A DNA stretch of 64,000 nucleotides, taken from the NCBI GenBank assembly GCA_944324395.1, contig CALUWC010000010.1:1-64000 (forward strand), in the 5' to 3' direction. Below the pieces are notes generated by a model. That model saw only the letters and a program-made list of their open reading frames with translations, was not told the origin of the DNA and ran no database searches. A program made the position numbers and the translations under genes. Origin of the DNA: Candidatus Gastranaerophilales bacterium (GTDB lineage Bacteria > Cyanobacteriota > Vampirovibrionia > Gastranaerophilales > Gastranaerophilaceae). This document shows, in pieces, positions 52,055 through 64,000 of the stretch; position 1 is the stretch's first letter, and each line of letters starts with the position of its first letter.

Positions 52055-53107
52055 ATGTACTATCAAGGACTAATCAATAAATACAGAGAATATTTACCCG
52101 TAACGGATTCAACACCTGTCGTTACCTTAAATGAAGGTAATACTCCTTTAATTAAAGCTGAAAACTTAGCAAAAAAAATCGGGGTTGATGCTGAAATATA
52201 TTTGAAATTTGAAGGCTGTAACCCGACAGGCAGCTTTAAAGACCGTGGAATGACAATGGCTGTCACAAAAGCGAAAGAATCCGGTTCGGGTGCTATAATT
52301 TGTGCTTCAACAGGTAATACTTCTGCTTCAGCTGCAGCCTACGGAGCTAAAGCAGGCTTGAAAACTTATGTTTTAATTCCTGACGGTTATATTGCACTAG
52401 GCAAACTATCTCAAGCTATGATGTACGGAGCTGAAATTATTGCTATTCAGGGAAATTTTGACAGAGCCCTTGAAGTGGTAAGAGAAATCGCTGAAAAATA
52501 CCCGATAACATTGGTTAATTCCGTAAACCCTTACAGAATTGAAGGTCAAAAAACAGGAGCTTTTGAAATCTGTGAAGCATTAGGTCAGGCTCCTGATTAC
52601 CATTTTATACCTGTTGGCAATGCCGGTAATATTACCGCATACTGGAAAGGCTATAAGGAATGGAACAAATTAGGAAAAATTCCTGCACTTCCGAAAATGA
52701 TGGGCTTTGAAGCAGAAGGAGCTGCCGCAATCGTTAAAGGCGAAAGAATTATGAATCCTGAAACAATCGCAACAGCTATCCGTATAGGAAATCCTGCAAG
52801 CTGGAAATATGCTGAAGCAGCCAGAGATGAAAGCAACGGCATGATTAATTTTGTTACGGATGAAGAAATTGTAAAAGCCTATAAACTCATAGCCTCTTCA
52901 GAAGGTATTCTGGCAGAACCTGCATCAGCAGCTTCTGTAGCAGGACTTATAAAAGTAAAAAATCTAATCAAAGAAGGTTCCAAAATAGTTTGTATCCTAA
53001 CAGGAAACGGCTTAAAAGACCCTGATAATGCCATAAAATATTCAAATGACGAAGTTAAAAAAACTTCTTCAAATTTGACAGATATTCTCAAAGCCATGAA
53101 TATATAA
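52055..53107 (+). CDS. thrC: Threonine synthase
   Basis: A 350-aa PLP enzyme of the short bacterial class that forms threonine from O-phosphohomoserine. The PLP lysine is in [18 protein letters not shown], and the phosphate loop follows in [35 protein letters not shown] and [11 protein letters not shown] are further conserved blocks. AAAAGGAAAAGAGGA provides the RBS. It stands alone, without thrA or thrB beside it. Confidence 0.95.
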
Positions 53108-53125
53108 CATTAAAGGTAGGTTAAG

Positions 53126-53593
53126 ATGAAAAAAATGTTTTGGGTCGTTGGAATTTCAGTAATAACTTTATGCAGCTGTATTTGTGTAAGAACTTTTGCT
53201 TACAGTGATGATTCTGCCGCTAAACTACAAGAATTCAAAAAACAGCAGGCTCAAATAAAAAAATATATACCATATTATAACAATCTGGCAACCTGCATTC
53301 CATATAAAAGTGATATGTATAAAATTTACGGAAAAGTAAACGGGGGATGCCATATTTATCTGCAAGATGATATCGGAAACGGTTATGACTGTCATGTTCC
53401 TATGACCGTAGCAAAAGCTAACAGTTCTTATGGTAAAAGTGTAACCAGCAAAATGTCTGCTATAAATTTGGAAGAACTTGCTTCTAATAATGCAGAACAA
53501 TTTATAAAAGAATTTACAATGATTATAAATGACTTGAAGCCTCTAACAAAAATGGAAAATGCTATTTTACAATATCATTGTAAGAAACTATAA
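53126..53593 (+). CDS. Secreted hypothetical protein, 155 aa
   Basis: A hydrophobic N-terminal signal (VVGISVITLCSCICVRTFAYS), probably Sec type with cleavage after FAY. The mature protein has three cysteines (ATCIPY, GGCHIYL, YDCHVPM) spaced like disulfide partners and a fourth near the C-terminus (YHCKKL). Helical at both ends. I recognise no family. It sits 18 nt after thrC, possibly in the same transcript, and ends in a strong terminator. Confidence 0.75.
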   Translation: MKKMFWVVGISVITLCSCICVRTFAYSDDSAAKLQEFKKQQAQIKKYIPYYNNLATCIPYKSDMYKIYGKVNGGCHIYLQDDIGNGYDCHVPMTVAKANSSYGKSVTSKMSAINLEELASNNAEQFIKEFTMIINDLKPLTKMENAILQYHCKKL

Positions 53594-53624: not shown

Positions 53625-53660
53625 ACAAGGCAAAACTATAATAGTTTTGCCTTGTTATAT
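53625..53660. terminator. Strong bidirectional terminator
   Basis: ACAAGGCAAAACTAT (53625-53639) and ATAGTTTTGCCTTGT (53641-53655) form a perfect 15-bp inverted repeat with a 1-nt centre, flanked by AT-rich sequence. It separates the convergent secreted-protein and graspetide precursor genes. Confidence 0.88.
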
Positions 53661-53680
53661 GTTTAAATTATATTCATCTG

Positions 53681-55330
53681 TTACAGAAGCTTAGGTTCAG
53701 AATCTCCGCCTTCTTCTCCAAGTGCCATTGTAGTGATTTGCCCGCCGCCTTCTTCTCCGATAGACATTGTGGTAACAGGAACATCACCATTTTCATTTAA
53801 TCCGTAAGTGCCTGCATCAACCTCGTTATTAGGCAGTTTAATTTCACCGTTTCTTATTTTTTCCAATAATTCCAGTATATTTTTTGTGGCTTTTTCATCC
53901 AAAATAGGCTTATCATTTTTATTTTTTAAATCTTCAATTAGTTTACGGAATTTCTCTTTAACATCATCAGATAATATGACAGAATCTCCGCCTTCTTCGC
54001 CCATAGCATAAGTTGTTATTGTCTCAAAGCCACCGTCTTCACCAATTGCCGCTGTAAAAGCTGTACCACCCTCTTCATTTGTAGCTTTGGTTGTTATGCC
54101 ATCACCGCTTTCACCAATTGCCGTTGTAACAGCTGAGCCGCCTTCTTCATTCAAAGCCATTGTGGTAATATTTTCACCACCCTCTTCACCAAGTGCCATT
54201 GTTGTTGGTGCTGCATCACCGGTTTCACCCAAGCTATATGTACCTGGCTCAATTGGACTCTTCGGAAGCTTTATTTCTCCATTTTTTATTTTCTCTAAAA
54301 CTTCTTGAAGTGTTTTCCAAGTATCGTCATCAATTTTTACGTCAGCACCTGTTTTATTTTTCAACTGTTCTACTGCCTCTTGAATTTTTTTTGACATTTC
54401 ATCATCGACTTTTACCGAACCGCCACCTTCTTCACCAAGTGCCATTGTTGTTGCTGCATCTCCGTTCTCGCCTAAAGCATATGTACCGGCTCCGATTGGA
54501 GGTTTTGGAAATTCTATTTCTCCATTTTTTATTTTTTCACTGTAGTCTTGAAGCATTTTCAATGTTTCCGGATCCAGATGTACCGGTAAGTCATGCCGAT
54601 ATATCCTGAAATCACCTTCTTCCTCTTTAGGAACAGATAGTTTTCCCGGACCATAAGTACCTTCCTCCTCCAGAGCTACAGATATTTGCCCCGGGCCATA
54701 AGTACCTTCCTCCTCTAGAGGTACAGATATTTCCCTCGGACCAACCATAGGCGACAAATCAGCTTGCTTTTTCTCCCGACGTTCAGCCATTTTTTCCAAA
54801 GCTTCCTGCATTAGTTTTGGAAGTTCTACTCCTCCGTTTTTCATTTTCTCTATATTTTCCCGAATTTGTTTCTGTGCTTCTTCATCCATTTCAGGAAGTT
54901 TTATTTCACCGTTTTGAACTTTCTCCCAAAATTCCTGACCTATTTTTGGATCTATTAATTTTCCAATAGTCATTGGAGGTTCGCCTTGTTCTTCACTTAA
55001 ATAAGATATACCTATCTTAGGATCAATACCTTGTTCTTTATCCGGGTAAGATATATTAAGTTTCTGGTTTCTTGCCCCATCATTGAAGTTTACAAAAGTA
55101 TTCTCATCAGGATTCTTTTCAACGTAAAATCCTTTCACTTTTAAATCTTTTGCATTATTTAAATCTTTTTTAGATTCAGTTTTCTTAGCAAGTTTGTCTA
55201 TTTCAGCATTTATTTGCTCGGAAGTAGGTTTTTTCACACCTTGAGCATTTAACTCTTCTTTTGCTTTTCTAGTCAACAAATCCTTATTATAATCATCACC
55301 GGATCCGCCATCTACTCTAAATGTTGTCAT
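53681..55330 (-). CDS. Putative multi-core graspetide precursor, 549 aa
   Basis: The start is ATG 55330 with AAAGGAG upstream. No signal peptide or enzyme motif. The N-terminal 80 residues are a charged helical region (DLLTRKAKEELNAQG). The rest alternates helical modules with short repeats of consensus x-[T/S]-x4-E-x-G. Seven match TTxxxxEE exactly (starting at residues 294, 376, 389, 413, 439, 520 and 533, for example TTMALGEEGG). Five keep one Thr and one Glu (GTYALGENG, GTYSLGETG, VTTAIGESG, FTAAIGEDG, GTYGLNENG), and five use Ser (ISVPLEEEG, ISVALEEEG, LSVPKEEEG, ISYPDKEQG, ISYLSEEQG). TTxxxxEE is the core motif of plesiocin-type graspetides, whose Thr and Glu side chains are joined by ATP-grasp ligases, and such a ligase is divergently adjacent. 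Alternative: a structural repeat protein. Confidence 0.75.
   Translation of the reverse strand: MTTFRVDGGSGDDYNKDLLTRKAKEELNAQGVKKPTSEQINAEIDKLAKKTESKKDLNNAKDLKVKGFYVEKNPDENTFVNFNDGARNQKLNISYPDKEQGIDPKIGISYLSEEQGEPPMTIGKLIDPKIGQEFWEKVQNGEIKLPEMDEEAQKQIRENIEKMKNGGVELPKLMQEALEKMAERREKKQADLSPMVGPREISVPLEEEGTYGPGQISVALEEEGTYGPGKLSVPKEEEGDFRIYRHDLPVHLDPETLKMLQDYSEKIKNGEIEFPKPPIGAGTYALGENGDAATTMALGEEGGGSVKVDDEMSKKIQEAVEQLKNKTGADVKIDDDTWKTLQEVLEKIKNGEIKLPKSPIEPGTYSLGETGDAAPTTMALGEEGGENITTMALNEEGGSAVTTAIGESGDGITTKATNEEGGTAFTAAIGEDGGFETITTYAMGEEGGDSVILSDDVKEKFRKLIEDLKNKNDKPILDEKATKNILELLEKIRNGEIKLPNNEVDAGTYGLNENGDVPVTTMSIGEEGGGQITTMALGEEGGDSEPKLL
53708..55054 (-). repeat. Array of 17 TTxxxxEE-like core repeats and five EKxxNGxIxLP spacer repeats
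   Basis: Core-like repeats lie between residues 93 and 541 of the precursor. Between them the helix-cap motif E-K-x-[KQR]-N-G-[EG]-[IV]-[EK]-[LF]-P recurs at residues 136, 161, 265, 346 and 490. The last three copies each precede a GTYxLxE(N/T)G core and then full TTxxxxEE cores. This spacer-core-core order suggests duplication of a whole leader-core module rather than of single cores. Confidence 0.8.
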
Positions 55331-55464: not shown

Positions 55465-56337
55465 ATGATTCTTATTATAGGAAGTGACGAAGATTTTCAT
55501 TCAAAATACATACTGGAAAAGTTACATGAACAAAATACCCCGGCAAAATATTTTGATACAAGGAAATATCCTGTATTAAACTGGTCGCCGGAAGGTGAAA
55601 ATGATTATATTATACTTGATGATGAGAAAATTTACCTGAAAGATGTCACAGGAATATACTGGAGATGGTACTACGGGGTAATTTATGGAACGTCTGACAT
55701 AGTATACAGAGAAAAGACATCCGCCCTTGAAAGCTTCCTGTGTTCGCTTGAGGATATCAGCTGGAACTCGCTGCAATCTGTTGAATTACATCGAAAAAAA
55801 GGGCTGCAAAGTAAAATTATGCAAAATAACGGAATAAGAATTCCTAAAACTATCGTTACTAATGACCAGGATGCCCTTGAAAAATTCTACCTTGAAAATA
55901 ACAAAAACATTATCTACAAACCTGTTAGAGGCGGAGCTTATACTCAAAAATTAAAAGAGGAAGATTTTTTACGCAAAGATACACTGATAAATTGTCCATG
56001 CCAGCTTCAGGAATGCATTGACGGCATTGATATTAGAGTTTATGCATTTGAAACAGGAGAAATTTTTTCAGGTGAAATACTTGCAAACAGTATAGATTTC
56101 AGAGCAGATGACAAAGCAAAAATTAACAAACACCCATTGCCGGAAAATATTCAAAAAGATTGTCTGAAAATATTAAAACTTCTTGGATTAAAATACTCAG
56201 GTATTGATATACGATTGAGCAATAGCGGAGAATACGTATTTATTGAAGCTAATCCTGCCCCAATGTTTACTCACTTTGAAAACATGACAGGTTATGAAAT
56301 TACAAACACGCTTATAAAAAATTTGAAAAAAGTTTAA
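55465..56337 (+). CDS. ATP-grasp peptide ligase, graspetide (MvdD/PsnB-like) type
   Basis: A 290-aa ATP-grasp enzyme. The N-terminal domain starts MILIIGSDEDFHSKYILEKL and has GIYWRWYYGVIYG near 63-75, matching the W-x-R segment of microviridin ligases. ATP and metal residues are visible: K152 in YKPVRGGAY, QECIDGIDIRVY (182-193), GIDIRLSNSGEYVFIEANP (247-265) with E263 and N265, and a C-terminal TGYEITNTLIKNL. The last block closely follows the MvdC/MvdD/PsnB pattern. RimK-like or other carboxylate-amine ligases are the alternative. RBS AAAGGAGG. Divergent to the repeat-bearing precursor. No protease or transporter is adjacent. Confidence 0.82.
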   Translation: MILIIGSDEDFHSKYILEKLHEQNTPAKYFDTRKYPVLNWSPEGENDYIILDDEKIYLKDVTGIYWRWYYGVIYGTSDIVYREKTSALESFLCSLEDISWNSLQSVELHRKKGLQSKIMQNNGIRIPKTIVTNDQDALEKFYLENNKNIIYKPVRGGAYTQKLKEEDFLRKDTLINCPCQLQECIDGIDIRVYAFETGEIFSGEILANSIDFRADDKAKINKHPLPENIQKDCLKILKLLGLKYSGIDIRLSNSGEYVFIEANPAPMFTHFENMTGYEITNTLIKNLKKV

Positions 56338-62395: not shown

Positions 62396-64000
62396 TTATA
62401 GATCACCGAAAGTAGTTGGAGTTTCAAAGAAGTTGATATTCAACAACTCTGAATCAACGTCTGACAGAGTACGTTTTGGAGCGGCCTTTCTAAGATCGTC
62501 CATATCTGTCATCAAGTCTACTTCCTGACCGTCTTTCTTCGCTACTGTTATATCTAAACCGATACTTTGCAATTCTCTTACAAGTACCTTGAATGATTCA
62601 GGAATACCAGGTCTAGGGATATTGTCACCCTTAACGATTGCTTCGTATGCTCTGTTTCTTCCGTTAACATCATCTGATTTGATAGTTAACATTTCTTGCA
62701 GAGTATAAGCTGCACCGTAAGCTTCCAATGCCCAAACTTCCATTTCCCCGAATCTCTGACCGCCGAATTGAGCTTTACCGCCCAATGGCTGTTGAGTTAC
62801 AAGTGAGTAAGGACCGGTACTTCTTGCGTGAATCTTGTCATCAACTAAGTGAACAAGTTTCAAGAAGTATGTCAAACCAACAGCAACAGGTCTGTCAAAC
62901 GGTTCACCTGTTCTGCCGTCAATCAACATTACTTTACCGTCTTCGCCAACCCAATCGCATCCTGATTCTTTTATACCACGTAAAAGTTCAGCTTTTGTTG
63001 CGATTTCTGATTGGTTATCACCGTACATTTCATCAAATGCAGGAGCTTCATAATAATCTCCTGTTAAGTATGAAGCCAAACCTAACAATAATTCATAAGT
63101 CTGACCTACGTTCATACGTGACGGAACACCCAGAGGATTCAATACGATATCAACAGGAGTACCATCAGGCAAGAAAGGCATATCTTCTTTTGGAAGAATA
63201 CGTGATACGATACCTTTGTTACCATGACGTCCTGAAAGTTTATCACCTACAGAAACTTTACGTTTTTGTGCAATGTAAACTCTGATAACAGTATTAGCAC
63301 CAGGCGGTAATTCATCGCCTTTTTCTCTGTCAAATACCTTGACGTCGAGAACTCTTCCGCCTTCGCCATGAGGTACTCTTAATGAATTATCTTTTACATC
63401 TCTTGCTTTTTCAGCAAAGATTGCTCTTAACAATTTTTCTTCCGGCGGATGTTCTGATTCACCTTTCGGCGTAACTTTACCAACCAGAATATCATCAGCA
63501 TAAACTCTTGCACCGATTCTGACAATACCGCGTTCATCCAAGTGTCTTAAAGCATCTTCAGACACATTCGGGATTTCACGTGTAATTTCTTCCGGTCCGA
63601 GTTTTGTTTGACGAGCTTCTATTTCTAATTTTTCGATGTGCAATGAAGTAAATATATCATCATGAACACAACGTTCTGATAAAAGAATAGCATCTTCGAA
63701 GTTGTAACCTTCCCAAGGCATATACGCAACTAAGATATTTTTACCTAAAGAAAGTTCGCCGCCGCAAGTTGAAGCACCATCAGCAATTACATCACCTGCT
63801 TTAACCTTATCTCCTTCATGAACGATAGGTCTTTGGTTAATACAAGTATCCTGGTTACTTCTTACATATTTCATCAATGTGTAAATATGCTGTTTGCCAT
63901 GAGTATCTCTTACTACAATTTCTTCACCTACAACTCTTTCAACTGTACCGTCTACATCGGCAACGATAACCATACCAGAGTCTTTTGCTACACGAGATTC
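62396..64000 (-). CDS. rpoB: DNA-directed RNA polymerase subunit beta (partial, N-terminus off window)
   Basis: The 3' 534 codons of rpoB. The open frame continues to the window edge ([18 protein letters not shown]), so the internal ATG at 63973 is not a true start. Visible are [56 protein letters not shown] and [20 protein letters not shown], then the C-terminal clamp. Stops 18 nt before rpoC1, same operon. The rifampicin region lies upstream of the visible part. Confidence 0.97.

Follow-up and report, generated by a model that had tools for sequence, protein, structure and literature searches.

Genes at the Locus

The window, that is, the whole stretch analyzed here, comprises 64,000 nucleotides from a Candidatus Gastranaerophilales bacterium (GCA_944324395.1, contig CALUWC010000010.1, positions 1–64,000, forward strand). 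As Table 1 shows, it encodes a 549-residue precursor, whose ATG is preceded by GGAG, and a divergently oriented protein of 290 residues. The latter matches the NCBIfam MvdC, MvdD, and GRASP models at E ∼1e-29, under the curated cutoffs, so that no equivalog is assigned. Its closest solved protein by sequence is PsnB, the plesiocin ligase (PDB, E 1.4e-30), which is also its best fold match, with 27% identity in the fold alignment. On these matches, the divergent gene is provisionally assigned as that of a plesiocin-type (PsnB-like) ATP-grasp ligase. Pfam and NCBIfam assign no family to the precursor. Within its repeated cores, however, Thr/Ser donors lie ahead of Glu/Asp acceptors, the peptide ligase is encoded next to it, and the gene pair has orthologues elsewhere. 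The ligase matches and the repeated Thr/Ser...Glu/Asp cores thus support the first-pass annotation, which had predicted a graspetide-type precursor adjoining its ligase. The seven TTxxxxEE cores, arranged in tandem, are those of the plesiocin type (group 2).

The named relatives of the ligase come from Candidatus Gastranaerophilales genomes, and the distribution of the ligase is patchy: 6 of 46 genomes of the window's genus and 23 of 383 in a sample of the order carry one, and no relative was found in viral contigs. A seventh genome of the genus (G026, 84% complete) has a core-like fragment beside thrC (L065) and no ligase match.

Table 1. Features of the precursor locus, in window coordinates
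Feature	Position	Strand	Basis
Graspetide precursor (549 aa) with leader and helix/core body	53681..55330	-	ORF; orthologues adjoin orthologous ligases
ATP-grasp graspetide ligase (290 aa), transcribed divergently from precursor	55465..56337	+	NCBIfam, PsnB match
Candidate terminator 3′ of precursor, 14-pair hairpin with T tail	53625..53655	.	Near-identical tract ends within hairpin
Tract ∼99% identical to sister species G067 (L018), save two in-frame indels	53627..55114	.	DNA comparison
Leader region, residues 11–51, two predicted helices (11–29, 37–51)	55178..55300	-	AlphaFold2 block, pLDDT 55–80
Conserved leader block VKGFYVEKNPDENTFVNFNDGAR, residues 65–87; TFVNF (78–82), proposed ligase-recognition motif	55070..55138	-	Precursor comparison
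Helix 1, residues 125–140, shorter family member	54911..54958	-	Translation, AlphaFold2
Helix 2, residues 148–165	54836..54889	-	AlphaFold2, profile
Helix 3, residues 252–269	54524..54577	-	AlphaFold2, profile
Helix 4, residues 308–325, without NGxIxLP tail	54356..54409	-	AlphaFold2, profile
Helix 5, residues 333–350	54281..54334	-	AlphaFold2, profile
Helix 6, residues 453–470, without NGxIxLP tail	53921..53974	-	AlphaFold2, profile
Helix 7, residues 477–494	53849..53902	-	AlphaFold2, profile
Motif copy 1, EKVQNGEIKLP, residues 136–146	54893..54925	-	Translation, motif match
Motif copy 2, EKMKNGGVELP, residues 161–171; junction of 98-aa indel vs G067	54818..54850	-	Motif match, G067 comparison
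Motif copy 3, EKIKNGEIEFP, residues 265–275	54506..54538	-	Motif match
Motif copy 4, EKIKNGEIKLP, residues 346–356	54263..54295	-	Motif match
Motif copy 5, EKIRNGEIKLP, residues 490–500	53831..53863	-	Motif match
Candidate single-ring cores ISYPDKEQ (93), ISYLSEEQ (108)	54980..55054	-	Pattern-based
Candidate single-ring cores ISVPLEEE (201), ISVALEEE (216), LSVPKEEE (231)	54611..54730	-	Pattern; least certain cores
Cores GTYALGEN (282, single ring), TTMALGEE (294, two rings)	54422..54487	-	Core pattern
Cores GTYSLGET (363), TTMALGEE (376)	54176..54244	-	Core pattern
Cores TTMALNEE, VTTAIGES, TTKATNEE, FTAAIGED, TTYAMGEE (389–448)	53987..54166	-	Core pattern
Cores GTYGLNEN (507), TTMSIGEE (520), TTMALGEE (533)	53705..53812	-	Core pattern

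Cores and Predicted Rings

We write the core positions as T1 T2 x x x x E7 E8, where a two-ring core has all four residues and a single-ring core keeps T/S2 and E7. By this pattern the precursor contains ∼17 predicted cores, 7 with two rings and 10 with one, which is more than the first reading of the sequence had named. That reading had taken GTYxLxEx for a core, and rightly so: Thr2 and Glu7 are kept while Thr1 and Glu8 are missing, which predicts a single ring. The distance of 8–11 residues that it gave between the upstream repeat and this core needs correction, since GTYxLxE starts 7 residues after the Pro of the repeat in copies 3–5.

The loss of Thr1 and that of Glu8 are coupled. Among 73 unique cores, both residues are present in 43 and both are lost in 17, with only 6 and 7 cores in the two classes that retain a single one (Fisher p 9e-7 for unique cores, ancestry ignored). 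When E8 is permuted within precursors and the G067 duplicate is removed, p is 5e-5, the minimum attainable with 20,000 permutations. This coupling predicts an outer Thr1–Glu8 ring that nests an inner Thr2–Glu7 ring, so that the ring chemistry is predicted from sequence alone; a nested hairpin is described for plesiocin-type graspetides (PMC13097080). Within the selected two-ring cores, variability peaks at position 3 (3.2 bits) and positions 7–8 are invariant, a pattern in which the variable residue would suit a protease-facing reactive loop. PMC13097080 also reports that more repeats give plesiocin stronger inhibition of serine proteases. The product of the present precursor would most likely inhibit several serine proteases.

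Other linker types occur between cores in relatives. One two-core precursor (L036, 4138–4914, minus strand) has its cores split by tandem GTPGPGVHLDEGQ-like units, and two others (L022, 3712–4881, and L023, 3706–4866, both minus strand) have graspetide-like cores spaced by long linkers rich in His/Trp/Asp and in Cys (KPSWGDKPD, HHHWG), linkers that possibly bind metal.

Leader and Ligase Recruitment

A KPTSxQI helix of the leader region is also conserved in four further precursors from the genus. Downstream of this region, the pattern [TSP][FY][VIL]x[FY] has one match in the window precursor, TFVNF at residue 78, ahead of all cores. This pattern is common to precursors encoded beside related ligases (42–91% identical), some of which have a single core and no helix, and all the other full precursors in the genus carry it, as do the single-core precursors. 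It reads TFV[DN][YF] in the window's genus, PFIKF in L028, TFIRF in L025, and SYLNF in L030 and L031; it reads SFVDF (L033), PFVKF (L035), TFINF (L032), or SFVKF (L036) in short precursors whose TTxxxxEE cores number one or two. The element is the apparent counterpart of PFFARFL in microviridins, in which the ligase is bound by a leader helix (PMC7823629), and the pattern Phhx(1,2)h is present in many graspetide leaders (PMC8939145). A point against the assignment is that AlphaFold2 models the motif as a weak strand, unlike the helical PFFARFL.

On these comparisons, the ligase is most likely recruited by the single N-terminal leader motif. The first-pass annotation had proposed instead that the repeated helices bind the ligase, with one such element in every module. 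That proposal is not sustained, as no internal helix of the window precursor contains [TSP][FY][VIL]x[FY], and the internal modules lack the motif, which is found once, at residues 78–82. Nor are the helices general where this ligase family acts, since both single-core and multi-core precursors do without them. A helix profile did not find them in the precursors at L022, L025, L028, and L030, or in the sequenced parts of the precursor of G009, a genome of the same genus whose ligase is 73% identical to that of the window and whose precursor is interrupted by a run of N. The ligase family would thus appear not to need the helices. Of the claimed new architecture, what stands is a real and unusual variant among multi-core graspetide precursors; a repeated ligase-binding role is not supported.

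A better candidate than the window for a truly repeated leader is found in a rumen relative (L037, 5967–7112, minus strand), in which three leader-like repeats (KQFIPTPENNPDW, KPFIPIPEDNPDW, and QPFLPIEEDNPDP) lie ahead of most cores.

Repeated Helices

Five copies of an EKxxNGxIxLP-type motif had been reported at residues 136, 161, 265, 346, and 490, and they lie exactly there. Three are strict matches and five fit the relaxed form EKxxNGx[IV]x[LF]P, with none in 20,000 shuffles. Each copy had been placed after a predicted helix; the association with a helix holds, and the position does not, because the motif itself makes up the helix's C-terminal end together with its NG cap. In the AlphaFold2 model of the precursor, which is weak (mean pLDDT 39.5), a helix ends at every motif copy and further helices are predicted at 170–184, 310–326, and 455–470. 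The copies form the tail of a wider family of helices, ∼18 residues in length, found in other Gastranaerophilales precursors. In the window precursor itself, at least two members of this family (308–325 and 453–470) are without the NGxIxLP tail.

The homology of the window helices rests on a BLOSUM-based profile built from the helices of three relatives only, with helices and register picked by hand. With this profile, six window helices outscore all ∼17,000 natural 18-mers from other ORFs. A strict HMM of the relatives' helices left the leader helix undetected and did not place the window helices clearly above shuffles. The leader's own second helix (residues 32–49) resembles the internal family weakly, with a chance expectation of 0.013 in the window and of 0.03–0.7 in four relatives, values that are not independent of one another. 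Helix-rich precursors are mainly the longest ones (14–17 cores), the exception being L026, truncated at the end of its contig, and helices and cores alternate strictly in G006 and L026. Across the five motif copies pS is 0.65 and pN 0.12, and the ratio of 0.19 is similar to the 0.25 of the two-ring cores. With many synonymous and few replacement differences, the copies are constrained rather than fresh duplicates. The NGxIxLP tail is missing from most relatives and present only in the window species and sister species G067; as these two share one payload, which has probably been exchanged, the tail counts as a single evolutionary instance.

Probable Payload Exchange with a Sister Species

The near-identical tract shared with G067 covers most of the precursor gene. 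Outside it, the leader and ligase DNA are only ∼74–84% identical, and the two ligases are 91% identical. In the payload (codons 88–549) dS is 0.031 and dN 0.004, as against a dS of ∼1.06 in leader codons 1–64, saturated synonymous sites in the ligase, and a dS of 0.24 in thrC and 0.53 in rpoC2. The tract ends at 55114 within the conserved leader block and at 53627 within the terminator-like hairpin. The copies are also set apart by two in-frame indels, one of 98 and one of 24 aa; both fall at repeats, and the first brings two EKxKNG elements together. On the simplest reading of these data, the payload would have been exchanged recently between the species and joined to resident leaders. An assembly artefact is unlikely, because the copies differ by about ten substitutions plus the two indels and sit in contigs of 90 and 191 kb from different genomes. 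Since the resident ligases are 91% identical, such an exchange would support leader-borne specificity, short of proof.

Beside the precursor, the 3′ part of the threonine synthase gene (thrC) and the DNA following it (52401–53200) are 95–99.5% identical to G067, compared with 86–89% for the 5′ part, which suggests a second exchange tract there. Within thrC this 3′ part is 98–99.5% identical, a level seen as well in one stretch near 62,600–62,800. Given the thrC match, the region is a mosaic and exchange is not confined to the payload.

Proposed Scheme and Alternatives

We favor, with moderate confidence, a two-gene plesiocin-type system in which one leader motif docks the ligase, ∼17 cores are esterified, the helices act as spacers, and the payload is exchangeable. 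The ligase would dock on the single N-terminal TFVNF within GFYVEKNPDENTFVNFNDGA and would esterify the cores along the body, probably distributively. The seven TTxxxxEE cores would receive an outer Thr1–Glu8 and an inner Thr2–Glu7 ester, and the ∼ten single-ring cores only the Thr/Ser2–Glu7 ester. The repeated helices, which in this species carry the NGEIKLP tail, may be structural spacers in helix–core modules that duplicate and recombine, and the payload beyond the leader motif could pass between species. The product would most likely be an array of ester-locked hairpins directed against several serine proteases. Of this scheme, the sequence establishes the repeat and the constraint on it, the single leader motif, the joint loss of Thr1 and Glu8, and the near-identity of the payload; the docking of the enzyme, the formation of rings, the role of the helices, and the inhibition of proteases are inferred. 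Distributive catalysis on many cores from one leader is known for AMdnC and PsnB (PMC5934393). Two observations weigh against a single leader: 17 cores over 460 residues per leader surpasses the literature examples found, and it is chiefly the longest precursors that contain helices. Against a spacer role, the constraint on EKxxNGxIxLP, like that on the cores, goes beyond the needs of a bare spacer.

In a weaker form of the first-pass proposal, the internal helices would be secondary docking sites, with the N-terminal motif starting the reaction and each helix re-recruiting or positioning the ligase near its own cores. The purifying constraint on the copies speaks for it. The spread of the helix family across species, the weak likeness of the leader's second helix to it, and the bias toward long precursors point the same way, and adding a second leader to an engineered graspetide raised the modification of its three cores (PMC13003496). 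Against it, the leader's F[VI]x[FY] motif is missing from the helices, and no helices were found in several precursors that adjoin related ligases, among them the sequenced parts of one from the same genus; the outcome with the stricter HMM also counts against this idea, and the five-core run (389–448) has no internal helix. We regard it as the foremost of the alternatives and nevertheless unlikely. A version with distributed recognition, which combines a primary N-terminal motif, helix docking sites by which one ligase serves the ∼17 cores, and payload exchange at the leader boundary, is likewise unlikely.

Alternatively, the helix and its NGEIKLP tail may be recognized by some other factor, for example an exporter, a partner protein, or a protease of maturation, the chain being cut into helix–core units. 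The constrained tail does sit between helix and cores, and the strict alternation in G006 and L026 would fit such cutting. Its lack in most relatives speaks against a recognizer of this kind, as does the failure to recognize a protease or transporter among the large adjoining ORFs, although remote genes could serve, and we consider this explanation improbable. That the body is a low-constraint slippage or recombination repeat, with helices of no further function, accords with the placement of both indels at repeats but is strongly disfavored by the high synonymous and low replacement divergence of the copies and by a helix common to several species.

The favored scheme, one leader docking the ligase for the whole body, would offer a natural case in which one leader, or a leader plus helpers, serves many cores, and it would test the reach of leader-directed modification.

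Comparison with Known Systems

A literature search, with most subscription journals outside its scope, found no graspetide report for Melainabacteria/Gastranaerophilales. The nearest known system is plesiocin (PsnA2/PsnB, group 2), which shares the repeated TTxxxxEE-type two-ester hairpins, predicted in the present case, and the single ATP-grasp ligase. Plesiocin has four repeats (PMC5934393, PMC12291112), whereas the window precursor has ∼17 cores, single-ring variants, and interspersed helices. Neither the precursor nor single-core relatives retrieved PsnA2 when searched against the PDB. The single-ring cores, of which VTYALGEN from a relative is an example, have a parallel in the engineered deletion of the outer ring by Thr to Val and Asp to Asn changes (PMC12291112).

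The microviridin system AMdnA/AMdnC resembles the present one in having one leader, several cores per polypeptide, and one ligase; it differs in having three microviridin cores, and the available text of PMC5934393 describes no internal helix repeat. Graspetide groups 34 and 35 of a 2026 survey also have long precursors with repeating motifs, and group 35 clusters consist of ligase and precursor only (PMC13097080). The idea of more than one recognition element per precursor, put forward in the first-pass annotation, has a precedent in the engineered fuscimiditide ThfA15, which has two leaders (PMC13003496). Both elements of ThfA15 are true leader copies, unlike the internal helices of the window precursor, which are without the leader motif. 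A payload swapped behind a retained leader would be the natural counterpart of RiPP engineering that joins a leader to any core.
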